Part shown: positions 9,553-46,673 of the stretch, piece by piece
How the letters are laid out: each line of letters begins with the position of its first letter
Numbering within the stretch: position 1 is the first letter of the stretch
DNA from: Erysipelotrichaceae bacterium 66202529
GTDB taxonomy: Bacteria; Bacillota_I; Bacilli_A; Erysipelotrichales; Erysipelotrichaceae
Reading direction: 5' to 3'
DNA: 64,000 nt
NCBI GenBank assembly: GCA_017161075.1
Contig: CP046174.1
Coordinates: 4,216,001 to 4,280,000, forward strand
The notes under the pieces: generated by a model
Told to the model about the DNA's origin: nothing
The model's database searches: none
The model's input: the letters and a program-made list of their open reading frames with translations, nothing else
Position numbers and translations under genes: made by a program

Positions 9553-12279
9553 TTAGTGCATATTTTTGATGTAAATGCTGATATATTCGATTTCCTCTAT
9601 AGGAATGGACACACTGTAATACTTTTCCACCTTTTCAAATGCCGTCTTGATACGCAGCGTAAACTCCTGCAGCTCTCTGTCACAGTCCGCAAAGGTCTTT
9701 CTATAATCCTCCTCACCCTCACGCGTAACCAGCCGTTCAATCAGACAGCAGACATGTACATACAAGCCAAAGCACATATTATAGCTGAACATCATGGACA
9801 TTTCCTTCTGCAGACGGTCAATCGCATCCGCCACATGCTCCAGCAGCTTATCCGGATTCAGAATGGTCAGATTACCTATGATATTAGAAAGTGAGAAATT
9901 CTTCAATATATTCCTTCGAAACTGCTCCATAGCTTCCTCATTGATCAAATCCTTAAAATGTATGGTCAAAACATCAAACGAATTATTCATAATCAGCTCT
10001 TCCACAGGTATGAACTTTATATTCTCAATATTAGGATTTAAGGTGCCTACAATGCATACTACCTCATAGCGTTCAAAAAAATCATCCTCCATACGGTTTT
10101 CCAGCAGCGTTGAATAGTCATAGGTCAGTACCCGCACCGGCAGATTCTTTGGCAGGGAATCCTCTAGAATGGTTTTCAGCTTCTCCGCAGTACCGATGCC
10201 TGTAGCACAGGAGCATAAAATTGCCTTTTCACGCTCTCTGCTTTCCATGATCTGGTATTGCATCATGCTTTGTTCCCTGTATGATTCAAATATCTTTTTC
10301 AGAGGTACGTTCTTACGCAGCGCATCACCGATGCTTAATGCCATTCTCGTACTAACGTCACTGGCGATTGCGACATTGGCTCTTGAGGTATCCTGAACAC
10401 CCTTGTGTATCTCCTTGAGGCTTCCCATATCGACAAGCAATACCAGATCGCGGTATTCCCCACGCTTTTTCAGGAAATCATTCAGTTTCTTTACGATTGC
10501 GTCTGTTGTTGTATCCAGGGGCATATCAATGGCATCATATACATACTGATCCAGCATCTGATTGACTGCATTCGCCATGGAGGAGGCAGTCGCATAGCCA
10601 TGTGCCAGAATGATGCCAATTCGTTTATTGATATCCCGACTGCGATGATACATATGCATAATCAAAGTGAAGATAGCCGCAATAAAGGGTCGCAGCTCAA
10701 TATCCAGATGCAGCTTCAGCACCTCGCTGATTTCAGTGACAATCGCAAATTCACGCATGAATTTCTTTTCAATAATTCCCACAAAATTTGTACATTCCTC
10801 CTGGAAGGTATCAAAATAATCCTCCATTTCCATATAGGACTGCATACAATCCCTTACCATAAGGGACATGGAATAAATCTCGTTCGTCTGAAACGCATAC
10901 CCGTATTTCTCAGAAATCATTTCAACGATAGCCTTCAGCGATTTCATAATATATGTATTCGTCGGGCCCTTAATATTCTGATCGTCAAACAATATTGCAT
11001 TGAAATAACGTTCTACATCCTCAGTGCATTTTTCGATGAATTTCTGCATCAGTATCTGATTATTCTGTAAATCCTTTAAATGCTCAAGCAGCTGCGCAAA
11101 CAAGGTGGTCTGCGGCAGGCTGTCAGCGGTATGGTCCTTCAACTGATCTAGGGTAAGCATTTGATGACGGTCAAACAAAATACTGTTTCTGTCAATGTGA
11201 TGATTGGATATGATTTTGCCGGGGAGATTCAGTGTATGGATTTCCAGCATCCCCTCTTTTTTATTATGGAATAAAGAGTCCATGCAGGTTGCCTGTACCA
11301 CATTGAATAATTCACCGACATTGCCTGTATAATTTGCGTTAAGCAATGCATTAAAGGCAGTATTGCTTATACGAATCCCTCTGCGCATTTTCTTCGCTTC
11401 CATATCGAGCGCTTCCACGAGAATCTGCGATTTTTCACGAATACCGCGTTCTTCCAGTGATGGTATTTCAATCCGCACCGGAATTCTTCGCAGCAGTGTT
11501 TTTAACAGGACTGCTTCTGGATCCTCTGTTGTTGCGAATACAAGCAGCACATTGCTGTGATACTGATGTTCATTATCCCCCAGCATACGGTAATTGCCAT
11601 GATCCATAAACAGGAAGAGCTTCTCCTGACACTCGGGGCGCAGGCAGTGCACTTCATCGAGAAACAGCACACCGCCCTCCGCAGCCTTAATCATTCCGAT
11701 ATTATCGCTCTCTGCACCGGTAAAGGCGCCTTTTTTATACCCGAACAAATTAGCTGTTATCAGCTCTGGATTGTTCGCATATTCACTGCAGTTGACATGG
11801 ATGAATTCACCGCCCTGTATGATTTTATGGTGAACACCATATTCATACATCAAAGCCGCAATACTGCTCTTTCCTGTTCCTGTCGGGCCGTACAGCAGAG
11901 TAGGCAGTCCATGGGGCGGATAAGAGATACTCGCCTTGCATTTATCCACAACATCGCGCAGCGAGCCCTTCTGTCCAATCAGCTTCTGAAAATCGGATTT
12001 ATCCTGTACCTGAATCATTTTTCTAAGCTCGTCAAAGGATGTAAGCAGTGATTTATCAACACGAATCTGAAATTTTTCCTCCAGAGCTTCTCTGTCGATA
12101 AAGACAACCGGACGTGTGTTTACTTTGATAAAGGTTCCGTCATTATAATAGTCATTCAGATACTGACAGATCCAGTTTCTGCTTAGTCCCAGCTGGGTTC
12201 CAAGCTGAGAGGCATTATTCAGCTTATATTTTTCATTTATGGTGTTTTCTTTCACAAGAGTTCGCAATCTATCTTCCAT
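9553..12279 (-). CDS. LevR-type sigma-54-dependent activator with PRDs (system 1)
   Basis: 908 residues. Order: winged helix (1-75); AAA+ domain with Walker A GPTGTGKS (131-138), GAFTGA loop (184-189) and Walker B VLFLDE (204-209); PRD1 (~405-545); EIIA-like domain with AHG (His560); EIIB-like domain with CSCATGIG (Cys ~689-691); C-terminal PRD2. All motifs needed for ATP hydrolysis and contact with sigma-54 are intact. PTS phosphorylation of the PRD/EIIA/EIIB parts should set its activity by sugar supply. It starts 5 bases after the deacetylase gene stop, so the two are co-transcribed. It should activate the promoter at 9402-9418. Confidence 0.93.
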   Translation of the reverse strand: MEDRLRTLVKENTINEKYKLNNASQLGTQLGLSRNWICQYLNDYYNDGTFIKVNTRPVVFIDREALEEKFQIRVDKSLLTSFDELRKMIQVQDKSDFQKLIGQKGSLRDVVDKCKASISYPPHGLPTLLYGPTGTGKSSIAALMYEYGVHHKIIQGGEFIHVNCSEYANNPELITANLFGYKKGAFTGAESDNIGMIKAAEGGVLFLDEVHCLRPECQEKLFLFMDHGNYRMLGDNEHQYHSNVLLVFATTEDPEAVLLKTLLRRIPVRIEIPSLEERGIREKSQILVEALDMEAKKMRRGIRISNTAFNALLNANYTGNVGELFNVVQATCMDSLFHNKKEGMLEIHTLNLPGKIISNHHIDRNSILFDRHQMLTLDQLKDHTADSLPQTTLFAQLLEHLKDLQNNQILMQKFIEKCTEDVERYFNAILFDDQNIKGPTNTYIMKSLKAIVEMISEKYGYAFQTNEIYSMSLMVRDCMQSYMEMEDYFDTFQEECTNFVGIIEKKFMREFAIVTEISEVLKLHLDIELRPFIAAIFTLIMHMYHRSRDINKRIGIILAHGYATASSMANAVNQMLDQYVYDAIDMPLDTTTDAIVKKLNDFLKKRGEYRDLVLLVDMGSLKEIHKGVQDTSRANVAIASDVSTRMALSIGDALRKNVPLKKIFESYREQSMMQYQIMESREREKAILCSCATGIGTAEKLKTILEDSLPKNLPVRVLTYDYSTLLENRMEDDFFERYEVVCIVGTLNPNIENIKFIPVEELIMNNSFDVLTIHFKDLINEEAMEQFRRNILKNFSLSNIIGNLTILNPDKLLEHVADAIDRLQKEMSMMFSYNMCFGLYVHVCCLIERLVTREGEEDYRKTFADCDRELQEFTLRIKTAFEKVEKYYSVSIPIEEIEYISIYIKNMH

Positions 12280-18266: not shown

Positions 18267-18519
18267 AATGCACTCCTTCCTTAACAGCATGGTTTAATTA
18301 TAGCACTGCTTTTTTAAAACGAAACTCTTTTTTTCAAATGTTAAGAAAACCTTTTGTTGAGGAGATATCACATTTTACAAAAAGGTAAACATTTTCAATC
18401 TTTTCAGTATAAAAAAAGAAAACGGAGAACTGTTTGAACTGCCCCTATATATCCGTTATAATAAATATAGACAAAGAACACATTACAGCTTCATACTATA
18501 CGGAAATGAGGTGCCGCCC

Positions 18520-21135
18520 ATGTCTGAAAAAGATCGTTTCTGGAATTGTCTGGATAATTGCCGCAACATATTGGACTCTCTGCCAAATCCTGTGATTGTT
18601 ACAGATATGGACAAAATTGTACGCTATATCAATAAAGCAGCAAGAGCGATCGTTCCCTCACCCTGTGAGAATTTACTGAACCAGCCCTGCTGTAATTTTA
18701 ACACCCCCTATTGCCATACAGAGAACTGCTGTATTGAACGCTTTCTGCGCAATGAGAAGGGGGCCATACAATACGGGCCGGATGATCTCATAAACCGCGT
18801 GGATATCTCCTATCTCACGGATGAGGAGGGCAATCATATCGGCTATATCAATGTATCTACAGATGTGCGGGAGCTGATTGAGGTACAGCGACAGCTGAAG
18901 ATCAGTCAGGAGCGCTATGAGATTGCATTGCAGCAGGCACGCACAGCCCTATGGGAATATGATATAAAGGAACGCACCATTCAGCGTATCGATGCAATAC
19001 ACGGACAGTTTTCCGAAATCTTTCCAAATGAAGGAATCATATGCGATGTTCCAGACTCTTTGATTGAACAGGGCATTGTCTACAGGGATTCCATCGAGGA
19101 AATCGAAAGCATGTATGCCCAGTTAAAGGAGGGCTTAAAAAAGGTTTCCGGACAGCTGCATATGCGCAATATGAAGGGGGAGGAGCGATGGGTTGAAATC
19201 AGCTGTACGACTATTTATGATGAAACGGGAAGAGCTATAAAAGCAATCGGCATATCAAAAGATATTACAGAACAGAAGCAGCTGGAATACAGTTACCGGA
19301 ATGAGCGGGAGCTCCAGGAGGCAGTATCCACCGGATTCCTGAGTGTTTTTGAAGTAAATGTCACAAAGAACTGTGTCATCCTGATTGACAAGCATGCAAA
19401 GGGAAAGCTGCATAAGCCGTTATCTGAAATTACATATGATGAAATACTGGAGGCTACGCTGCAAAAGGTACATCCCGATACACAAAAACGGGTTCATAAC
19501 GCAATGAACCGCAATACGCTGTTAACGGAATATGCAAAGGGTGCGCGTGAACTTACAATCGAATATCAAAAGCTTGTAAATAATACATACCGCTGGATCA
19601 ACGCCTCTGTTCACCTATTAAAAAAAGAAGAAAGCAGTGATCTGTTTGCCCGTATGTTTCTTAAAGATATCCATTCACAGAAGGAAAAGGAAGCAAGGCT
19701 GCAGGAGGAGGTTCAGATTGATGCACTGACAAACACCTTTAACCGCAAGGGATTCATTGATCACGTCAATACGCTCCTGAATCATAAGCCGGATATACAG
19801 TGTGCACTCATGATTCTGGATATTGATAATTTCAAGGAGGTGAATGATACCTTCGGACACCTCTATGGAGATGCTGTGCTTTCAGAAACTGCTAAGAAAA
19901 TACAGCAATATTGCCGTGAGGATACATTGATTGGACGTCTTGGCGGAGATGAATTCATTGTCTTTTTTCCACAGTTAAGCAATGCAGAAGCAATTCAGCA
20001 TATCGCAGAACGCCTGCAGCAGGCGCTGATGAATACATATACCTCAGGCAGTCATACGGTACGCACGAGTATTTCCATGGGAATTGCCTTTTATCCGGTA
20101 CATGGAGTAACCTTTACTGAGCTGTATGATAAAGCAGATACAGCGATGTATCACTGTAAAAAGAATGGAAAAAATAAGTGGTCTGTCTATGATGAGAAAA
20201 TGAAGCGCACACAGCAGATCATAGAGCGGCTGGAAGCTGATCCTGTAAATGATACGCAACTGAACAAGCCGTTTGAAGGCAATATCGGTGAATATATTTT
20301 CCGTATTCTGTATCGCAGGGATAAGATGGACGATACGACCATCCGTACGGTGCTTGAGCTGGTCGCAAGGCATTACGGTATGCAGTATTTCTATGTTATG
20401 GATTTTGACAGAGAAGGCCGCACCCTGTATCCGCTTCTTATCTGGGGTGAGCAGAATCAAAATCTGTATGCGGAATTAAAGGCTGAGGAACAAACGGCTG
20501 TGTTGAATTTCCTTGCGTCTGTCCATACGGAAACCGATCAGATATGGTTCATAGAAAATCGGGAACAGGACTGCTTTACCCGACTGCCTAAAGAAATTAT
20601 GGAGAAATTGCATATGCAGGCACTGGCACATATGAGTGTACCGGTATCTATTCACCACGATGTATTGATCGGCTTTGCGGACTTGTGTGAGAGGCATAGC
20701 TTCAGCCGTGAGGAAAGAAATGACATTCGGACAGTATTTGAAGTTATCGTTACCTTCCTGCGTGATCAAAGGCAGCGCATACAGCAGAAAAAATATACGG
20801 ATACGCTGCTCTCTCTATTAAACAATCTGGGTAATTCCGTATATGTTATCAATCCGCATACCTATGAGCTGATTTACTTCAATCAGAGTCTTCGTGAGGT
20901 ATTTTGCGGCATTGAAACAGGAAAGATATGCTATCGGGTCTTTCGCTGCAAGGACACCCCATGCAGTGACTGTCCGATACAAAAGCTATCCCAGAATGCT
21001 TCATCCGCCACAGCTGATATTTTCAATGCAAAGCTGCAGGCTGTTATCAAAACCACGGCTGCCTATGTGGAATGGTACGATCATCAGAAATATGTACTCC
21101 TATCCTGTGTGGATGTTACAAAATACAACCGCTGA
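18520..21135 (+). CDS. Multi-PAS diguanylate cyclase (GGDEF protein)
   Basis: 871 residues, cytoplasmic. Order: PAS (~12-125, with a Cys-rich stretch containing CNFNTPYCHTENCC), PAS (~130-255), a further PAS-like region (~265-390), GGDEF domain (~400-560, motif RLGGDEF intact, so cyclic-di-GMP synthesis is likely), a GAF-like region (~580-755) and a C-terminal PAS with CKDTPCSDC. The inhibitory I-site (RxxD nine to six residues before GGDEF) reads RxxT, so product inhibition may be lost. The cysteine sets could bind metal, iron-sulphur or sense redox state. The frame opens with a GTG at 18511; the ATG at 18520 after GAGGTG fits better. Confidence 0.9.
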   Translation: MSEKDRFWNCLDNCRNILDSLPNPVIVTDMDKIVRYINKAARAIVPSPCENLLNQPCCNFNTPYCHTENCCIERFLRNEKGAIQYGPDDLINRVDISYLTDEEGNHIGYINVSTDVRELIEVQRQLKISQERYEIALQQARTALWEYDIKERTIQRIDAIHGQFSEIFPNEGIICDVPDSLIEQGIVYRDSIEEIESMYAQLKEGLKKVSGQLHMRNMKGEERWVEISCTTIYDETGRAIKAIGISKDITEQKQLEYSYRNERELQEAVSTGFLSVFEVNVTKNCVILIDKHAKGKLHKPLSEITYDEILEATLQKVHPDTQKRVHNAMNRNTLLTEYAKGARELTIEYQKLVNNTYRWINASVHLLKKEESSDLFARMFLKDIHSQKEKEARLQEEVQIDALTNTFNRKGFIDHVNTLLNHKPDIQCALMILDIDNFKEVNDTFGHLYGDAVLSETAKKIQQYCREDTLIGRLGGDEFIVFFPQLSNAEAIQHIAERLQQALMNTYTSGSHTVRTSISMGIAFYPVHGVTFTELYDKADTAMYHCKKNGKNKWSVYDEKMKRTQQIIERLEADPVNDTQLNKPFEGNIGEYIFRILYRRDKMDDTTIRTVLELVARHYGMQYFYVMDFDREGRTLYPLLIWGEQNQNLYAELKAEEQTAVLNFLASVHTETDQIWFIENREQDCFTRLPKEIMEKLHMQALAHMSVPVSIHHDVLIGFADLCERHSFSREERNDIRTVFEVIVTFLRDQRQRIQQKKYTDTLLSLLNNLGNSVYVINPHTYELIYFNQSLREVFCGIETGKICYRVFRCKDTPCSDCPIQKLSQNASSATADIFNAKLQAVIKTTAAYVEWYDHQKYVLLSCVDVTKYNR

Positions 21136-21213: not shown

Positions 21214-22431
21214 CTATTTTTGTTTTCTTTCCTTTGATCCGGGAATATGTAAAATAGAACGATACTTCGCGATTCCCCTTCTTGAAACATACAAATCAAG
21301 CTCTTCCAGCATGACAACAAGATCCTGATCACGGTAGGGGCAATGCTTATCCTCTGTATCCACAAGCTTTTGTATTGCTTTCAGTATGGAATCTTTACTG
21401 CTTCCCTCCTTTGTCGCTGATACAAACAAATCCTTAACCGCATAAATTTCATTTTGGAAAACATAATACTTGTTCGACAGTGTCCGTGATACAGTGGATT
21501 CATGAAACCCTGTTTTCTTTGCAATATCCATCAATGTACAAGGCTGCAGCTCATCCATGTATAGAAAATGATTTCTCTGTATATGCACAAGCTCATTCAC
21601 CATCATAAGCAATGTCCTGTTTCGTTTATGCAAATGGTCTATAAAATAATAGGCTTCATCAAAATATTCCCGCAGCTCCTTCATTTCTTCCTTCATTACC
21701 AGAAGCTCATCCTCAATCTGAAAATGTCCCAGCTGCTTTGGTATGATTTCTATTTCTCCATCCTGCGCCTGAATTTCAAAATCCGGTAAAGCTGGTGGTG
21801 GACACTCTGCCCCATAGGAACTGCATGGATATGGCTGGCATTCCTGTATTTCCTTCAGACAGGCATACACCTGTTCAAGAGATAAATGACAGGCGGCTGC
21901 AATCGCTTTATAGTCCTTGTGTATGATTTCCTTTGCATACTGTGTGAAAATCTTTTCTGCCGCATGCTTTCCTTTTCTCAGCAACTGTACCCGTATGCTA
22001 TCCCTGCAGCCTTCTGCAGCAACACCGCACGGCTCAAACGACTGCAGCAGCTGAAGACTTTTTTGTATGACAGTTTCCTGTGTTTGCAGGAGCTGAGCAT
22101 ATTCATGTACCGAGGCCGTGAGGAATCCATTCTCATCGAGGGATTCAATCAGATAACTGCAGACAGTCTCGTTAAAAGCAGAACGGCAGGTATGCAGCTG
22201 CATATACAAATCGTCTTTGAGCGTTTGTTTCATGGAAACCGTTTCCTGCAGGAGCTGATGCATATCCGCAGACGGTGTGTATTCAATCACCGGATTCCGC
22301 TCTGCCAGTGCCTTTATGTACTCCAGCAAATCCTGCTTACTCATTTTTAAAATATCCAGTGAGTTTTTCATAGTCTGTGATAACTGCAGGGTCTGTGACA
22401 GCTTTTGTGTATAAATAAATTTATGCTCCAA
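21214..22431 (-). CDS. rpoN: RNA polymerase sigma-54 factor
   Basis: 405 residues. The N-terminus is Gln/Leu-rich (TQKLSQTLQLSQTM, the activator-interacting region I), followed by the core-binding region, a helix-turn-helix (MDIAKKTGFHESTVSRTLSNK) and a C-terminal RpoN box, SRRGIAKYR. The usual box is ARRTVAKYR, so Ala-Arg-Arg-Thr-Val has become Ser-Arg-Arg-Gly-Ile. Two starts are open: GTG 22449 and TTG 22431. A sigma-54 promoter at 22458-22474 would start RNA at about 22449, and GGAGGG lies 6 bases before the TTG, so TTG is chosen. The protein serves the LevR-type activators on both sides. Confidence 0.93.
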   Translation of the reverse strand: MEHKFIYTQKLSQTLQLSQTMKNSLDILKMSKQDLLEYIKALAERNPVIEYTPSADMHQLLQETVSMKQTLKDDLYMQLHTCRSAFNETVCSYLIESLDENGFLTASVHEYAQLLQTQETVIQKSLQLLQSFEPCGVAAEGCRDSIRVQLLRKGKHAAEKIFTQYAKEIIHKDYKAIAAACHLSLEQVYACLKEIQECQPYPCSSYGAECPPPALPDFEIQAQDGEIEIIPKQLGHFQIEDELLVMKEEMKELREYFDEAYYFIDHLHKRNRTLLMMVNELVHIQRNHFLYMDELQPCTLMDIAKKTGFHESTVSRTLSNKYYVFQNEIYAVKDLFVSATKEGSSKDSILKAIQKLVDTEDKHCPYRDQDLVVMLEELDLYVSRRGIAKYRSILHIPGSKERKQK

Positions 22432-22457
22432 AAGAATCCCTCCTCTCACCCATATTC

Positions 22458-22497: not shown

Positions 22498-22526
22498 TTG
22501 ACATTTATTTTCTTTGAAATTACTAT
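22498..22526 (+). promoter_or_regulatory. Sigma-A promoter of the LevR-type regulator gene (system 2)
   Basis: TTGACA (22498-22503), 17-base spacer, TACTAT (22521-22526). RNA would start near 22533, leaving a ~14-base leader made almost entirely of the AAAGGGG ribosome site. It is back to back with the rpoN sigma-54 promoter. Confidence 0.75.
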
Positions 22527-22546
22527 TCTATCAAAGGGGTGATAGT

Positions 22547-25279
22547 GTGAAAGAGAAAATTCTCGCAATCATCAGAAGAAATTGTGAACAGCATTTGTTT
22601 GAACGTAATACGGCAGGGGAAATCAGTGAGGAGGTTCATGTGAGCCGAAATGAAGTTGCCGCAGCACTGCAAAATCTGACAAAACAGAAGAAGCTGATTA
22701 AAATTGAATCCAGACCACTGTATTTTTTAGACAGAGTGTATATGGAGCAGGAATACCAAACACAGATACCGGAAAGCAGCTATCCATCACTCGAGCTTCT
22801 TCTGGCATACTGCAAAAAGGAACCGCAGGATTTTGACAAGCTGATCGGTCATGACGGAAGTCTGGCTGAACTGATCCGCCAATGCAAGGCAACCATTGCG
22901 TATCCACCGGATGGACTTCCCCTGATGCTATATGGGCCGACAGGATCCGGTAAGAGTCTGATTGCAAGACTTGCATTTGAATATGCCAGAAACAAAGGAT
23001 TACTGGCTGATCAGGGAAAATTCATTGCGGTAAACTGTAGTGAATATGCAAATAATCCGGAATTACTAACTGCCAATCTGTTTGGCTATGTCAAGGGTGC
23101 ATTTACCGGTGCGGATCAGAACAAGGCAGGGCTCATTGAGCTGGCAAACGGCGGGGTCTTGTTTCTCGATGAAGTGCATAATCTCAAGGCGGAATGTCAG
23201 GAAAAGCTGTTTCAGTTCATGGATCGCGCCATCTATCACAGAGTAGGTGACAATGAAACCTGGTATACCTCAAGGGTTCGCCTGATCCTTGCGACAACCG
23301 AGCCGCCGGAAGAGGTATTACTGAAAACACTGCAGCGAAGAATCCCTATGACGATAACGGTTCCCGGCTTGAAGCAGCGGGGTGTACAGGAAAAGGTTCA
23401 GCTTTTATATGCAATGTTCAAGGAAGAAGAACAACGCCTGCATAAAACGATACTGCTTAGTACCAAGGTGTACAATATACTGCTTTCCCATGATTTTACA
23501 GGCAATATCGGCGGCTTAAAAAGCTGTGTGCAATCCTGCTGTATCAACTCCCTTTTTCAGGATAGCGATCATAAGGAAATGCAGATACAGCTCGTAAGCC
23601 TTCCTTCTCATATCCTCAATGATATCACTGAGAAAAGCTCTGTCTACACGACCTCTACAGAATATATACGTTTACAGGATCTTATGAGCTTTATTCATAC
23701 AGACAAGGAAATCATACGGCTGAATGAGGAGCTGCTGAAGCACTTCGCTGCATTTGAACAGCATGAAATCGACGAGGAAGCCTATATCAGGAAATGCTGT
23801 CATGCTGTATGGAAATATTTTGATAACACGCTGCTTTCTGAATCACAGGCGCAGCAAAAAGATTTTTATCAAAGCGGCATACAGCATATCTTCGGGATCG
23901 TAAGCGGTCAGTATAAGCTGGCAATCAGCAATAACGATGTGTTATCTGTATGCAGCTATCTCAACGCATACACAAAGGACTATCACAGCTTTAGGAACTG
24001 GTCACTGAAGAACAGGGAGAAGACAGAATTGTTTCTCAGCTATATGAAAACACGATTCCCCAGAGAATACAGTCTTGCTTCAGAAATCGGAAATTATCTG
24101 ACCTCCTATCTGGATATCGATATCCTGCCAATGACCATCATAACCTTTATCCTGTATTTCAAAAATCTGTTTAAGGATGAGCAGCACCAGAAACGCACCG
24201 GTGTCATACTGGCACATGGATTTTCCACAGCCAGCAGCATTGCGGATGCCGTTAATAAGTCCCTGGGAAGCTATGTATTCGATGCCATCGACATGCCGTT
24301 AAATGTGGATATGGGCTCCATACTGGATCAGCTGAATACCTATCTGAAAAAGCTGGGAGGTACGCAGGAGCTGTTTCTTCTCGTGGATATGGGAAGTCTG
24401 GAGGAAATATATAAGGGGCTTCATCTCAATAATGTTAACATTGGCATTATCAACAATATCAGCACAAAAGCAGCACTGGAAATCGGCATCGGCATGCTGC
24501 ACAACCAGACGATGGAGGATATCTTTAAGCGTGTTGTGAGCGGTAATGTAACCAGCTATCATATTGAACGCAACAGACAGAAAAAACATGCAATTCTCTG
24601 TTCCTGTGCAAGTGGTATGGGTACAGCCGAAAAGCTGAAGCAGACAATCGAGGATTCTTTGCCGCTTCAAAGCGAAATCGCCGTCCTGGCATATGACTAT
24701 AATGAATTGGTGGAAAAGGGAATGAACAGTACATTATTTGACAGCTACCATATCCTGTGCGTTATCGGAACACTGAATCCCAACATTGAACAGCTGTACT
24801 TTATACCGATTGAAGATTTGATTATCAATGATACGATCGACGGATTTGATCAATGTCTGGAAGATGTGATGACGAAGGAACAGCTGATCTGTTTTAAAAA
24901 GAACATCCTAAAAAACTTCTCCTTGTCCAATATCATGAACAGTCTCACCATATTGAATCCCAATAAGCTGCTGGAGCATATTGCAGATGCCATTGACAGA
25001 TTGCAAACCATTCTTTCCGTACAGCTTGCCAACAATACCTGCTTTGGTTTATATGTACATATGAGCTGCCTGATTGAACGCCTGGTTATGAATAAGGGAA
25101 TTGAGCTGTATCCGGATATGCTGGCGTTTGAAGAAAATCAAACAGCATTTATCGCACAGGTAAAAACCGCATTTACAGATGTGGAGCAATTTTACGGTGT
25201 TCAGATACCGGTCGCAGAAATCGGTTATGTATACGATTATGTAAAAAATGATTTGAATTATATAAAATTTCACTCATAA
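22547..25279 (+). CDS. LevR-type sigma-54-dependent activator with PRDs (system 2)
   Basis: 910 residues, same plan as the system-1 activator: winged helix (1-70); AAA+ with Walker A GPTGSGKS (130-137), GAFTGA (184-189) and Walker B VLFLDE; PRD1; EIIA-like domain with VILAHGFSTASS; EIIB-like domain with LCSCASGMGTAEKLK; C-terminal PRD2 with YVHMSCLIERL. All active motifs are present. Starts at GTG 22547 after AAAGGGGTG; an upstream TTG-led extension (22514) overlaps the promoter and is rejected. The PTS-2 operon with three sigma-54 promoters follows directly. GfrR of Salmonella, which drives a glucoselysine/fructoselysine PTS, is a good functional model. Confidence 0.93.
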   Translation: MKEKILAIIRRNCEQHLFERNTAGEISEEVHVSRNEVAAALQNLTKQKKLIKIESRPLYFLDRVYMEQEYQTQIPESSYPSLELLLAYCKKEPQDFDKLIGHDGSLAELIRQCKATIAYPPDGLPLMLYGPTGSGKSLIARLAFEYARNKGLLADQGKFIAVNCSEYANNPELLTANLFGYVKGAFTGADQNKAGLIELANGGVLFLDEVHNLKAECQEKLFQFMDRAIYHRVGDNETWYTSRVRLILATTEPPEEVLLKTLQRRIPMTITVPGLKQRGVQEKVQLLYAMFKEEEQRLHKTILLSTKVYNILLSHDFTGNIGGLKSCVQSCCINSLFQDSDHKEMQIQLVSLPSHILNDITEKSSVYTTSTEYIRLQDLMSFIHTDKEIIRLNEELLKHFAAFEQHEIDEEAYIRKCCHAVWKYFDNTLLSESQAQQKDFYQSGIQHIFGIVSGQYKLAISNNDVLSVCSYLNAYTKDYHSFRNWSLKNREKTELFLSYMKTRFPREYSLASEIGNYLTSYLDIDILPMTIITFILYFKNLFKDEQHQKRTGVILAHGFSTASSIADAVNKSLGSYVFDAIDMPLNVDMGSILDQLNTYLKKLGGTQELFLLVDMGSLEEIYKGLHLNNVNIGIINNISTKAALEIGIGMLHNQTMEDIFKRVVSGNVTSYHIERNRQKKHAILCSCASGMGTAEKLKQTIEDSLPLQSEIAVLAYDYNELVEKGMNSTLFDSYHILCVIGTLNPNIEQLYFIPIEDLIINDTIDGFDQCLEDVMTKEQLICFKKNILKNFSLSNIMNSLTILNPNKLLEHIADAIDRLQTILSVQLANNTCFGLYVHMSCLIERLVMNKGIELYPDMLAFEENQTAFIAQVKTAFTDVEQFYGVQIPVAEIGYVYDYVKNDLNYIKFHS

Positions 25280-25304
25280 GTGTGCCCTGTGGCACACTTT
25301 TTGC
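25278..25304 (+). terminator. Terminator that shares its arm with a sigma-54 promoter
   Basis: Stem AAGTGTGCC/GGCACACTT (25278-25286 with 25291-25299), loop CTGT, followed by TTTTT (25298-25302). It starts inside the regulator stop codon. Its right arm is the -24 box of the first PTS-2 promoter. Confidence 0.65.
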
Positions 25305-42422: not shown

Positions 42423-42905
42423 CTATCCGCTTATCATTTTACCAACATCACTTGGTGACTCATTCGGTACCAACTGATAATACATCGGGATATGCTTATT
42501 CATGATGCGCTGCATACACTCTATTTCCTCTTCACTTGCTGATACATTGCGATTAAATTTTCTGCGGCCTGACTTTGCCCCCATTCCTCCAAGAATAACT
42601 TTATCCAGCAGAATTCCTTCATCAATTAAAGCCTCAACCACCTGTGGTGTCTTAACCAAAATGATTATTCGTTCTTTATCCTTAGCCTCCCTTTTCAACT
42701 CACACACTCCGTTTGCTATATTGTATATATCAATACGAATATCGGAAGGTGCTGCTGCTTTAATGATTTTCTGCAAAAAAACATCCTTCACCAATGCCTC
42801 ATCAATTATTACGATCCGATTACCCTCAGTCTGCTTTACCCATGCTGTAACAACCTGTCCATGTATAAGACGGTCATCAATACGGCATAACACAATATGT
42901 TTCAT
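42423..42905 (-). CDS. PTS mannose-family EIIB component (system 3)
   Basis: 160 residues with active site CRIDDRLIHGQVVTAW (His15) and the later KVILGGMGAKSGRRK block. It lies two bases after the EIIA stop. Length and motifs are normal. Confidence 0.93.
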   Translation of the reverse strand: MKHIVLCRIDDRLIHGQVVTAWVKQTEGNRIVIIDEALVKDVFLQKIIKAAAPSDIRIDIYNIANGVCELKREAKDKERIIILVKTPQVVEALIDEGILLDKVILGGMGAKSGRRKFNRNVSASEEEIECMQRIMNKHIPMYYQLVPNESPSDVGKMISG

Positions 42906-42907
42906 GT

Positions 42908-43309
42908 TTAATCCTCCTTCAGCATTTCATTAACATGAATGAGCGTTTTCATTCCCTCTGACATTATGTGTACTATCAGCGACTTCAGCTCCAATTGCAT
43001 TCTTGAACAGAGAATCTCCAGTAAAATGGGAAGATTGATTCCTGTCAGGTGTTCAAATGTGTGATCCTTCATCAATGACGCTGTAACATTAAACGGACTT
43101 CCTGAGCGCATATCTGTTAGAATCAGTATTTCACTTCCTTTTCGTGTACAGCTAATTGCCTGCAAAATAGACTCTCTCAGCTGTTCAACGCTTTCACCTA
43201 AATAGAAGCCGAATGCCTGTACATTTTCCTGTTCCCCCATAATGAGTTCACTGCTTGCCAGCATCGCTTTTCCATATTCGCCATGTGTAACGATTATGAT
43301 ATCAATCAT
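42908..43309 (-). CDS. PTS mannose-family EIIA component (system 3)
   Basis: 133 residues, His9 in IIIVTHGEYGKAML and ILTDMRSGSPFN as second block. The frame opens at 43342, but the ATG at 43309 with AAGGAGG seven bases away gives the family N-terminus. First gene of the PTS-3 operon. Confidence 0.92.
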   Translation of the reverse strand: MIDIIIVTHGEYGKAMLASSELIMGEQENVQAFGFYLGESVEQLRESILQAISCTRKGSEILILTDMRSGSPFNVTASLMKDHTFEHLTGINLPILLEILCSRMQLELKSLIVHIMSEGMKTLIHVNEMLKED

Positions 43310-43340
43310 ATACAGCTTCCTCCTTTTCCTTTCTGATGTC

Positions 43341-43370
43341 ATCTTATCATCGTCCCTTTTGAGTGGTCAA
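43341..43370 (-). promoter_or_regulatory. Sigma-A-type promoter of the PTS-3 operon
   Basis: The minus strand has TTGACC (43365-43370), an 18-base spacer and TAAGAT (43341-43346), about 32 bases before the EIIA start. No -24/-12 element is found anywhere between the operon and its regulator, in contrast to PTS-1 and PTS-2. Confidence 0.65.
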
Positions 43371-43387
43371 AAAAGTTCCTATTTCAA

Positions 43388-43407
43388 CACACTCAGGAAA
43401 GCGTGTG
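43388..43407. promoter_or_regulatory. Inverted repeat just upstream of the PTS-3 -35 box
   Basis: CACAC (43388-43392) and GTGTG (43403-43407) with ten bases between, extended on both sides by partly paired TTCA/GAA. It is placed where a class I/II activator would bind. Confidence 0.4.
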
Positions 43408-43584
43408 AAGAAAAAAGAACGGATTTACAAGCTTTTAATCCAATGATTTCCAGCGAAAACATACATTACATGTATATTTTTCAAAAAGCAGACACACTTT
43501 TAGACTTTTATATGCATTTTTATTCTTACTGTGTTATTATGAAGAAGAAAATTACACAAAAAAAACTGAAGAGGGAGTGATTTT

Positions 43585-46020
43585 ATGAGCAAACGTAAAG
43601 AACTAATTCTGAAAGCAATTTATGCGCATACCTTAGAATGTCTGGAAGACAAGCAGTATGATAAGCTTGGAATGGATGCCTCCTCTTTGGCGATGGATCT
43701 GCAGCTGGACCGCTCAAATGTATCCAGAGATCTCAACCTCCTGCATCAGGAAGGCAGACTGATAAAGCTCAACGGTAGACCCACACTATATGTTTCACGC
43801 CAGCTTTTAATGAAGTATTTTCCTGAGCAGAATATTCCAGCCGTTCTTTCCAAGGATCAGCAGCTGAACGATTTTCTTACAAAGCAGCAGCGTCAGATTA
43901 AACATATGCAGTTGAAAGAATCGCTAGATACATTGATTGGAAAAAACATTGGTGAGAGTATGTATGAGCCGATTCAAAAAGCTAAAGCAGCAATGAATTA
44001 CCCATATAGCGGTTTAAATACCATCATAGAGGGACAGGAGGGAACTAATCGTAAGAGCTTCGCACAGCTCATGTTTTTATATGGAAAACAGAATGACCGC
44101 TTTTCCTCCTTTCATTCTCCGATTATTGCAGATTGTAGCCTTTTAAAAAATTATTCTATTCATGATTTGGATATGTATTTATTTGGAAAAATCATCGACA
44201 GCCGTCTGCGTCACGGTCTTGTGGAAAAGGCTAAGCAGGGGATGCTCATACTGCTTCAGTTCGATCAGCTCCCCGATTTAATAAAGATTAAGATATGCAA
44301 CGCCATAACAGAAGCACAATACCATCCACTTAATGCTGTCAATCGTAGATTTTCATTTCAATGCCAGGTGATTATCACTACCTCCTCTTCCGAATTAAAG
44401 GAGGAGTCCATGATTCGTCGCTGTTTTCCAACACTTATTTCTTTGCCTTCGCTACAACAGCGTACTCTAGAAGAAATCGTAATGCTGGTTCTCAATCAAT
44501 TTCAAGAGGAGGCTTATTTCATTAAACGTGCCATTCGAATATCTAAGGGTATTTTGAGTTGCTTTGCAATGTCCTCCTATAAGGGAAACCTGCCGCATTT
44601 AAAAGCCGAAATACGCAGTGCATGTGCAAATGCCTATACCCGTTTGATAAAAGAATCCCCCTTATGTATCACTTTGGATTTCGCCGATATATCAAATACG
44701 GTGCTATCCGATATTTATGATGTAAATGAACGTTATCAGCAGTTGAATACTATTTTAGCTTTATTCGCACATAATGATTTTTATTTTTCCACGGTGAAAG
44801 AAAATGAAGAATTACAGATGCTCTATCATATCAATGAGGAAATGAATCAGAAAAAAACGATTTCTATAAATAATGCAAAGAGCGAAATCGTAAATCAGTG
44901 TTTAAATGATATGAATGCATTTATGAATGTTCATCTGAACACCATACGCTCTATTTTATTAAAGGATATTTATGATTTGTTATATCCTGTCTTACAGGAT
45001 AAGCCTATTTCACGAAATGAAAATATACTTTATGGAATGTTAAGCAAGCTTTCTGAGTTTATCTCTGCTTTCAAAGAAGATGCATATCAGGCGATTACAG
45101 ATAATGGTTCTATCAACATTGCACGAAAAAAAGATTACCTGTTATTTGATGAGATACAAGAAGCTGTTTCTTCACGCTTCAATTATACTTTTACAAAATG
45201 GGAGCGTGATTATATTGCGACCTACATATATCTTTCCAGCCAATGGTTGCAGGAAAAGCAGGTACAGCTTCTAATCGTTACTGAAAATGGCCGTTCCAAA
45301 GAATATGCACGTTATCTGCATTCTCATGATTACGGAAACCAGATTCTATCTCTGGAGTTGGATACACAAGTATCTCATGATGCTCTGATATCCATTCTAG
45401 CAAAGCATGTACAGGATAATGATAAGGGAAAAGGTGTTTTGATCATTACGGATTGTAAGGATATCAAGCTGCTTGAGGAGGAAATACAGACTTTATCAAA
45501 TTGCCATGTACGCATTGTCCCAGACCTTGACCTGCCACTCTTGTTAACACTGCTAAAACGAGCAAGCAGTATTGGAGCAACCTTTGATACCATTCTTCAA
45601 AAGGATAACAGTAATCTGAATGCCGAAATAGACACCAAGGACTCTGACAGTTATGCAATGCAATTGATTCAACAAATGGATGAAACTATTTTAAGTGATT
45701 CCCTTGTTTTTTTAAATCCCCGTAAATCCTCCCAAATACTTTATAAAACCTTAAATTCCATTACAAAGCAGCTTCAGCTTCCATATTCAGATAATCTGCT
45801 CATTAAATTTATTTTTCACTGTTCCTTTACCTTAGAACGATGTATAAAAAATGAACCACTTTCTTTTCCGAAGATGAAGGCATTCATAAATCGCAATCAT
45901 TATATTTACAATATTATCGAGCGTAATTTTCATGAAGTTCAGGAGGTTTTTGACTGTACGATTCCTTCTTCTGAATTTTCATTTATCACTGAGATATTTC
46001 TTCCTTTATTCAAAGAATGA
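43585..46020 (+). CDS. Degenerate LevR-like PRD regulator lacking ATPase and GAFTGA motifs
   Basis: 811 residues, alignable throughout with the two intact LevR-type activators. Winged helix (1-75) is kept. In the AAA+ region Walker A GPTGTGKS is replaced by GQEGTNRK (150-157), the GAFTGA loop is deleted (LFGKIIDSRLRHG at 199-211), and Walker B LFLDE reads LILLQF. The EIIA-like domain has IVTENG where the others have ILAHG, so its phospho-histidine is gone; the Cys-containing EIIB-like domain is absent. The last PRD keeps a histidine (IFHCSFTLERC). The frame is long and open, so it is selected, not decaying. It probably binds DNA upstream of PTS-3 and works without sigma-54. Confidence 0.85.
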   Translation: MSKRKELILKAIYAHTLECLEDKQYDKLGMDASSLAMDLQLDRSNVSRDLNLLHQEGRLIKLNGRPTLYVSRQLLMKYFPEQNIPAVLSKDQQLNDFLTKQQRQIKHMQLKESLDTLIGKNIGESMYEPIQKAKAAMNYPYSGLNTIIEGQEGTNRKSFAQLMFLYGKQNDRFSSFHSPIIADCSLLKNYSIHDLDMYLFGKIIDSRLRHGLVEKAKQGMLILLQFDQLPDLIKIKICNAITEAQYHPLNAVNRRFSFQCQVIITTSSSELKEESMIRRCFPTLISLPSLQQRTLEEIVMLVLNQFQEEAYFIKRAIRISKGILSCFAMSSYKGNLPHLKAEIRSACANAYTRLIKESPLCITLDFADISNTVLSDIYDVNERYQQLNTILALFAHNDFYFSTVKENEELQMLYHINEEMNQKKTISINNAKSEIVNQCLNDMNAFMNVHLNTIRSILLKDIYDLLYPVLQDKPISRNENILYGMLSKLSEFISAFKEDAYQAITDNGSINIARKKDYLLFDEIQEAVSSRFNYTFTKWERDYIATYIYLSSQWLQEKQVQLLIVTENGRSKEYARYLHSHDYGNQILSLELDTQVSHDALISILAKHVQDNDKGKGVLIITDCKDIKLLEEEIQTLSNCHVRIVPDLDLPLLLTLLKRASSIGATFDTILQKDNSNLNAEIDTKDSDSYAMQLIQQMDETILSDSLVFLNPRKSSQILYKTLNSITKQLQLPYSDNLLIKFIFHCSFTLERCIKNEPLSFPKMKAFINRNHYIYNIIERNFHEVQEVFDCTIPSSEFSFITEIFLPLFKE

Positions 46021-46141
46021 TTTAAATTAAAATATTAGTTTTGCTGCATCCATGCTGCTAATGTAATTCCTTACTTAAATAATAAAAGCATGCATGTATG
46101 CATTTTCTATATGCTGCGTATTGAAACAATCATCGCAACAA

Positions 46142-46202
46142 AAAAAGACTTATATACAGCAGTGGATTAAATGATCTGACCAATGCTGTTATACGTCTTT
46201 TT
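46142..46202. terminator. Bidirectional terminator between the PTS-3 regulator and the mannitol-type operon
   Basis: A long imperfect stem: AAAAAGAC-TATA-ACAGCA (46142-46161) pairs with TGCTGT-ATA-GTCTTTTT (46184-46202). A and T runs at each end serve the convergent genes. Confidence 0.7.
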
Positions 46203-46217
46203 CATTACTAATTAGCT

Positions 46218-46673
46218 TCACTCATAAAGCGTCGCATTTAATATCTGCATAATTTCCTTCTTATCCGTACTCCTTCTAAGCCGTTCAACCTGCTCTTGTT
46301 CCATACACACGAGCGCGATCTGAGAAAGCAACTGAATATGTACTCCATCTCTGCCTGCAATTCCAATCATGATATACACCTTTTCTCCATCAAAATCAAC
46401 CCCCTCGGGAATCTGCAGTACTGATAAGCCAGATTCTAGAATATGCTGTTCACTATTAACAATCCCATGGGGAATAGCCACATGATTACCTACATAGACA
46501 GATACCAGACGTTCCCGTTCCATCATATCCTCAATATAAGCCGCCCTAACATACCCCTGCTTTACAAGTACCTCACCACATGCCTGTATGGCGCTCCAGC
46601 GATCTGCGTATGAAGCCTGCAATATGATATTATCCTCCTGTAAAATGGGCTTCCTCGTTTTTTTTGTATTCAT
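46218..46673 (-). CDS. PTS fructose/mannitol-family EIIA component
   Basis: 151 residues of the PTS_EIIA type-2 fold. The phosphorylated histidine lies in NHVAIPHGIVNSE. The start overlaps the EIICB stop by four bases. Supplies phosphate to the neighbouring EIICB. Confidence 0.92.
   Translation of the reverse strand: MNTKKTRKPILQEDNIILQASYADRWSAIQACGEVLVKQGYVRAAYIEDMMERERLVSVYVGNHVAIPHGIVNSEQHILESGLSVLQIPEGVDFDGEKVYIMIGIAGRDGVHIQLLSQIALVCMEQEQVERLRRSTDKKEIMQILNATLYE

Follow-up and report, generated by a model that had tools for sequence, protein, structure and literature searches.

A 64,000-nucleotide stretch of the genome of Erysipelotrichaceae bacterium 66202529 (contig CP046174.1, positions 4,216,001 to 4,280,000; the whole stretch is called the window below) encodes a degenerate regulator of the LevR type, P0001 (43585..46020, plus strand), recognized by its open frame, Pfam matches and alignment. 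By sequence comparison, the sigma-54 contact and the ATPase motifs of its LevR-type ancestor are lost from this protein. The reading that we favor, at a probability of roughly two in three, is that P0001 works independently of sigma-54, as a class I-like activator controlled by the phosphotransferase system (PTS) at a sigma-A promoter, and descends from a LevR-type sigma-54 activator. The protein would bind an ACACA-N9/10-TGTGT dyad, centered some 61 bp ahead of the transcript start at an ordinary sigma-A promoter of the divergent mannose-family PTS operon, and would activate in class I style, RNA polymerase being recruited and not remodelled with ATP. Signal input would be reduced to the histidine of the second PTS regulation domain (PRD2). 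By analogy with LevR, this residue, H745, would receive phosphate from the EIIB encoded in the operon whenever substrate is lacking, and P0001 would then be inhibited. Since only the PRD2 site is kept, the likely logic is induction by the transported substrate with no HPr input. The AAA+ remnant is maintained by selection, perhaps for oligomerization.

Motif loss and domain organization of P0001

P0001 measures 811 amino acids and its reading frame is uninterrupted. Two intact regulators of the same window, P0003 (22514-25279, plus strand) and P0004 (9553-12279, minus strand), were aligned with it. The altered Walker A region (44029-44061, plus strand) reads EGQEGTNRKSF versus YGPTGSGKSLI in the intact proteins, the lysine being changed to R and the S/T to K. 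In the altered Walker B region (44236-44271, plus strand) FGKI..IDSR replaces FGYVKGAFTGADQ of the intact pair, and the DE residues are absent. QGMLILLQFDQL stands where the intact pair has GGVLFLDEVHNL, and the GAFTGA loop is deleted. The LAHG motif of EIIA corresponds to IVTENG, with loss of the histidine, the EIIB stretch is missing, and H745 of PRD2 is retained. The Pfam Sigma54_activat model scores 27.7 bits in P0001, versus 131 and 126 in P0003 and P0004. A preliminary description of this DNA had listed the same losses (Walker A lysine, Walker B acids, GAFTGA, EIIA histidine, EIIB) next to a full open frame, a DNA-binding domain and a PRD histidine, and the alignment agrees with it on all these points.

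The order of the domains is that of LevR minus EIIB. A winged helix-turn-helix (HTH) domain (residues about 1-80, approximate bounds; 43585..43824, plus strand) is conserved in alignment A1, whose 19 rows are P0001 and 18 of the relatives P0005-P0023 described below; the residues invariant in A1 include R43, N45, S47 and R48. The AAA+ remnant (residues about 110-370, approximate bounds; 43912..44694, plus strand) is covered by the hhalign comparison of A1 with P0003, which over the HTH-AAA part gives a probability of 99.8% (E 4e-30). In profile comparison the C-terminal half matches PRD1-EIIA-PRD2 of intact LevR proteins with 99.9% probability over 429 columns, hence an EIIA-Man-like region is present without its histidine (residues about 555-665; 45247..45579, plus strand; profile alignment and motif table). 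PRD2 (residues about 700-811; 45682..46017, plus strand; Pfam PRD, 50.4 bits at 721-806) contains H745 (45817-45819, plus strand), invariant in A1 and in A2, an alignment which mixes intact and degenerate proteins. The window clade and intact LevR proteins, aligned as profiles over both halves, gave E values of 7e-66 and 9e-37. Judged from this homology over HTH-AAA and PRD1-EIIA-PRD2, P0001 is a member of the LevR superfamily by descent. Solved-structure relatives were not found by single-sequence search; profile A2 matched AAA+, PRD and EIIA structures. The region 42800-46300 has no match in Rfam, and a search of PHROGs gave none. The nearest named model, NCBIfam DagR, scores 179.5 bits with P0001 versus a cut-off of 1400, and the intact P0003 and P0004 also fall below the cut-off.

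The degenerate clade

A protein search identified 19 relatives (P0005-P0023, one of them a fragment), 34-94% identical to P0001 and all ranked ahead of the first intact protein. A second search, started from a more distant member, added 56 clusters (P0038-P0093, a few being fragments): GAFTGA is found in none of them, the Walker B DE in 9, the Walker A GK[ST] in 33, among them P0038, the EIIA HG in 55, the PRD2 histidine in 49. Near copies and fragments were removed before trees were built. The 90-row FastTree tree includes 77 clade rows, in which GAFTGA is found 0 times, Walker B 10, Walker A 29, the EIIA histidine 57 and the PRD2 histidine 71 times. Read along the tree, these counts suggest a series of steps: GAFTGA is gone everywhere, Walker B and A in most rows, the EIIA histidine in a quarter, and the PRD2 histidine would be the one kept longest. 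The idea that the loss is a recent event in this strain was rejected on the same counts, as no clade row keeps GAFTGA; the loss is old and family-wide.

The window protein belongs to the 20 rows of 77 which retain the PRD2 histidine alone. Of these, four (L044, L046-L048) branch at the base of the closest subclade of the window protein or fall beyond it; the tree has 2 changes, and the EIIA histidine has thus probably disappeared on more than one occasion. No EIIB is present in the clade rows examined, nor in one set of intact LevR proteins (P0024, L005-L013), so its loss may have come first.

The AAA+ remnant is, by codon comparison, under purifying selection: the three window-clade pairs whose dS is usable gave omega values of 0.04, 0.14 and 0.05, and one Clostridium pair (see below) 0.07; dS has reached saturation in the remaining three degenerate pairs. 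The low omega led us to reject a pseudogene. The divergent PTS neighbor is conserved.

The degenerate form was found in at least 17 of the 244 genomes of the Amedibacillus dolichus family, a lower bound, as up to four candidates were scored per genome. Carriers number 18 of 315 genomes in the order, and 3 of 395 in the class, all three being among the 17 family carriers. In genome contigs, the single-protein search confirmed no relative; the alignment search gave 15 loci in named genomes, 4 of which hold clade members (Breznakia pachnodae, A. dolichus and two metagenome-assembled genomes). Viral contigs contained no relatives, and tblastn of plasmids returned nothing beyond matches of less than 60% identity.

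Several proteins depart from the common pattern. Loop 1 reads FGASKGATISTQER in L037 (1619-4090, genome G220) and in P0085, and may be the remnant of a half-lost GAFTGA. In the otherwise intact LevR-type proteins P0094, P0110 and P0128, GAFTGA is replaced by HAFTGA or QAFTGA; P0094 and P0110 are named as Enterococcus proteins. The EIIC gene beside the degenerate regulator of L046 appears to be split into two separate frames (10463-10849 and 10872-11207). A subclade made by L049/L098 (3512-6004), L050 (4533-7022), P0083, P0084, P0086 and P0090 has lost the PRD2 histidine too. There, the L098 and L050 regulators adjoin an operon led by a HAD hydrolase, and not a PTS; in L098 the hydrolase precedes two BtpA-family proteins and a ribulose-phosphate epimerase. 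In this subclade, absence of the phosphorylation site coincides with absence of the PTS neighbor, and GGCACAGATTAATCTGTGT dyads persist between the divergent genes.

Promoter type across the family

Intact and degenerate loci were scored for -24/-12 elements, taking the best score out of 14 in a 360-bp region that spans the first PTS gene's start. Scores of 12-14 were obtained in 21/21 intact LevR loci. Only one of the 19 degenerate loci scores 12, the others 8-10; in the background, 4.7% of 1600 random 360-bp pieces from these loci reach 12. The exceptional locus, L004, belongs to G004, a genome in which rpoN was not detected. L073 (intact, with no mannose-type PTS recognized beside the regulator) and L049/L050 (degenerate, no PTS beside) were left out of the count, and L097/L098 were fetched later. 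Sigma-70 promoters were sought in the 110 nt that precede the corrected gene start and compared with shuffled sequences: the combined p value is 8.9e-9 in the degenerate set, 0.93 in the intact set. The switch of promoter type claimed in the preliminary description is hence borne out by the family, in which loss of GAFTGA and loss of the -24/-12 element go together.

In the window, the operon divergent from P0001 (37704..43309, minus strand) encodes, according to Pfam, EIIA-Man, EIIB, EIIC, EIID, an Fe-alcohol dehydrogenase, a Zn-dehydrogenase and a class II aldolase. The start listed for the EIIA frame, 43342, overlaps the -10 box, and was corrected to the ATG following AAGGAGG, at 43309. Promoter scoring identified a sigma-70-type promoter, TTGACC-18-TAAGAT, with a TG before the -10 (43341..43370, minus strand). 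No -24/-12 element scoring 12/14 or more is present between 43341 and 43584, as had been claimed for this operon; given also the 1/19 count at degenerate loci, an overlooked element was rejected. Perfect -24/-12 elements precede the operons beside P0003 (25358, plus strand, and a second at 25290, plus strand) and P0004 (9402, minus strand). The window also contains rpoN (21214-22449), so sigma-54 is available to this organism.

Candidate operators and their geometry

ACACA/TGTGT half-sites mark the intergenic regions of degenerate loci, where 102 were counted versus 20.3 expected; upstream regions of intact loci contain 18 versus 14.8 expected. Dyads matching at 9/10 positions or better are found in 12/19 degenerate and 2/21 intact loci. 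When the best dyad and the best promoter were picked independently, the ACACA-N9/10-TGTGT dyad was centered at -61.5 +/- 2.5 in 14 of 21 degenerate loci; L043, a near copy of L042, was left out of the count. In 200 shuffles this geometry was seen in 1.9 loci on average and in 6 at most, and each other distance holds 0-2 degenerate loci. Intact loci have no peak near -61, no more than 3 falling at any distance. With second choices, the geometry fits L036, L039 and L040 as well. In the window, the candidate operator is the dyad ACACG-N10-TGTGT (9/10; 43387..43406, minus strand). Its center is at -62.5 from a transcript start placed from the -10 box, inside the interval of the 14 loci. A single half-site near the start of the regulator (43554..43558, plus strand) might serve autoregulation.

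Eight intact loci were checked for the dyad. A 9/10 match lies about 115 bp upstream of the -24/-12 start in L071 and L085, four loci have 8/10 matches at scattered distances, and two have none. The two better dyads suggest, and no more, that the recognition sequence predates the conversion and that the site has moved.

Occurrence of rpoN

The 244 genomes of the A. dolichus family, for which completeness is not given, were surveyed for rpoN at the family cut-off. Of 38 genomes encoding an intact LevR-like protein, 37 have the gene; of the 17 carriers of the degenerate form, 8 do (Fisher p 3e-5; the 38 genomes were sorted by hand, and 8 genomes fall in both groups). All 8 degenerate-form genomes with rpoN also carry an intact LevR-like protein. 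In the remaining 9 of 17, neither rpoN nor an intact Sigma54_activat domain was found at E 1e-20, and rpoN was also not found in a further carrier, G187. As completeness is not given, single absences may be gaps.

An intact Sigma54_activat gene resides within 10 kb of 54 of 59 rpoN places (median distance 1.7 kb). rpoN is found in cassettes with LevR and PTS genes, as in the window (21214-22449 and 22514-25279) and in loci L069-L088. Two or more rpoN genes are present in 12 of 43 genomes, up to five in Breznakia; B. pachnodae, a carrier of the degenerate form, has rpoN. A -24/-12 site directly precedes rpoN in the window (22459, minus strand), L070, L076, L086 and L088, which may mean that rpoN is activated by the LevR that accompanies it. 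A large protein of the window (18511-21135, plus strand) features a GGDEF motif, read by eye in the translation.

A second degenerate lineage in Clostridium

A LevR-type group in Clostridium (P0033, P0034, P0037; L093-L096) has lost GAFTGA and the Walker B pair, and keeps the EIIA histidine, the EIIB cysteine and the PRD2 histidine; L096 still has the Walker A GKS. At E 1e-150, this form was detected in 4 genomes out of the 68 of one genus, and rpoN is present in all four. The regulators (L093 8260-10887, L094 7959-10586, L095 8073-10376, L096 7744-10425) adjoin a PTS_EIIC permease, accompanied in L093 by a GH1 glycosidase; we read the PTS as one of the lactose/cellobiose type. Promoters of L093-L095 are TTGACA-17-TAAAAT (p 0.003 or less), and two L096 regions gave p values of 0.03 and 0.42. 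No -24/-12 element is present in the 5 Clostridium regions (best scores 7-9). TATACAC repeats overlap the PTS promoter of the lineage. Trees place it apart from the window clade; an approximately unbiased (AU) test on a 36-row subset gave p 0.145 for a single origin of the two, so that the test does not reject a common origin despite their separate placement. The Clostridium lineage probably degenerated independently, as judged from the trees.

Activation, repression and other readings

A center near -61 is the position of class I activators, and a site upstream of the -35 box is typical of activators. The -61 position fits the recruitment of sigma-A polymerase, and from it we infer activation, rather than repression, by P0001. 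Better dyads accompany weaker promoters (Spearman -0.475, p 0.04, 19 loci), as expected for activator-dependent promoters; the test is soft because some of the promoters were second choices. The main rival, which we hold unlikely, is a sigma-54-independent repressor bound to the dyads between the divergent genes, which would block sigma-A promoters until substrate appears. In 16 of 18 loci the regulator start has a half-site no more than 70 nt away (1.91 matches expected overall), and in the Clostridium lineage TATACAC overlaps the -10 of a near-consensus promoter; both would suit repression. The main dyad, near -61 and upstream of the -35 in 14/21 loci, and the LevR ancestors, which are activators, argue against it.

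Some data weigh against the activator that we favor. Those half-sites near the regulator's own start would suit a repressor equally. Taken alone, the window promoter is at chance level (1 found versus 1.0 expected; p 0.06), and a conclusion from this promoter by itself was rejected; the window dyad alone has a p value of 0.07, and the window has 4 occurrences of the dyad pattern with one mismatch, versus 1.66 expected. The case rests on the family. The promoter and the dyad just upstream of it reported in the preliminary description do exist on the minus strand (43370..43341) and at 43387-43406, and become convincing only across the family. The -61.5 geometry is missed by 7/21 loci with first choices, and by L047, L097, L098 and L050 with second choices too. 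The dyad pattern was recognized by reading these same regions, and its enrichment is accordingly descriptive. A stricter, genome-wide pattern gave 6 matches, versus 8 for a reversed control, in 9 genomes, and was dropped as evidence of specificity; in G002 and G003 its sole match is the PTS promoter site.

Improbable in our view is an activator of sigma-A promoters which still requires ATP binding. Rhodobacter capsulatus NtrC, according to PMC10274813, requires binding and not hydrolysis of ATP, and the Walker A GK[ST] is kept in 29 of 77 clade members; in P0001, R replaces the lysine and K the S/T, and the motif is equally altered in its nearest relatives. Still less probable is that P0001 remains linked to sigma-54, for instance by assisting or antagonizing, without ATPase activity, the intact LevR proteins of the same genome. 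This would agree with the presence in the window of rpoN and two intact LevR proteins, and with the intact LevR-like protein carried by 8/8 degenerate-form genomes with rpoN; it is at odds with the 9/17 carriers without rpoN or an intact Sigma54_activat domain, and with the 18/19 target operons without a -24/-12 element. Loss of several motifs might even point to a decaying gene with no function, a reading given hardly any credence in view of the open frame, the low omega in pairs with usable dS, and the conservation of the divergent PTS neighbor and of the operator half-sites.

The view of P0001 as an enhancer-binding protein turned into an ordinary PRD activator, put forward in the preliminary description, is supported, with qualifications. 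The promoter switch accompanies GAFTGA loss family-wide, and 9/17 carrier genomes were found without rpoN. The loss is old, the word activator follows our reading of the operator position, and purifying selection on the AAA+ remnant (omega 0.04-0.14) sets P0001 apart from ordinary PRD activators in its build. As a tentative extension of the favored reading, the whole degenerate clade of LevR-type proteins may have been converted stepwise to class I sigma-A activators, a change which would have let the regulator survive the loss of rpoN; the ACACA half-sites would have moved from about -115 to -61, and a similar conversion would have occurred in Clostridium.

Relation to known regulators

P0001 resembles the LevR/CelR type (Bacillus subtilis LevR, Bacillus thuringiensis CelR) in its HTH, AAA+ region, PRD1, EIIA-Man-like region and PRD2 histidine; it also adjoins a mannose-family PTS and is homologous over both halves. 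Unlike these proteins, it has no GAFTGA, Walker A/B residues, EIIA histidine or EIIB, and its target no -24/-12 element, so that the functional marks of a LevR-type sigma-54 enhancer-binding protein are missing. MtlR/LicR-type proteins are likewise PTS-controlled PRD activators, and are not known to use sigma-54. They feature a Mga-like domain and two PRDs, followed by EIIB-Gat and EIIA-Mtl (PMC10864463), an architecture which P0001 does not have, and lack an AAA+ region between HTH and PRD1, unlike P0001. The same source indicates that LevR is inhibited by EIIB-dependent phosphorylation of the PRD2 histidine and stimulated by HPr-dependent phosphorylation of the EIIA histidine, and places the LevR site at -125, versus near -61 in the window clade.

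TyrR, DhaR, HupR and, by sequence, VpsR are described as having lost GAFTGA and moved to sigma-70 (PMC3162934), as is NtrC of R. capsulatus and Caulobacter (PMC10274813). Such proteins share with P0001 the descent from sigma-54 activators and the lost GAFTGA, and their targets, known or presumed, are sigma-70 promoters. For the P0001 family, the sequence signal of such promoters is strong; for the window taken by itself it is near chance level. Unlike these NtrC-like proteins, P0001 is of the LevR class, with PTS control, and has lost Walker motifs and PTS sites too; its clade numbers at least 77 sampled sequences, and resides also in genomes in which rpoN was not detected. Among 490 enhancer-binding proteins surveyed in Clostridiales, 355 have an exact GAFTGA and 100 variants (PMC6615313); Erysipelotrichia were reported as poor in such proteins by a 2025 survey restricted to those with GAFTGA (PMC12316311). 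Titles and abstracts of the literature revealed no sigma-54-independent LevR-class regulator, most subscription papers being outside the search. Loss of the sigma-54 contact is known from TyrR, DhaR and HupR; the series of intermediates in the LevR-class case is unusually complete.

The clade members P0068 and P0069 are labelled 'sigma 54-interacting transcriptional regulator' in the database, a name which would mislead regulon predictions. Sigma-54 activators rely on ATP-driven remodelling of the polymerase, ordinary activators on its recruitment, and the crossing between the two mechanisms has been seen mainly in its final products, TyrR and HupR among them. In the present family, living relatives stand at several stages and retain their operators and promoters; sigma-54 is present in some of their genomes and apparently missing from others, so that the order of the steps can be tested by exchanging natural regulator-promoter pairs. 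The clade appears to be a readable series of steps from one kind of gene switch into another.

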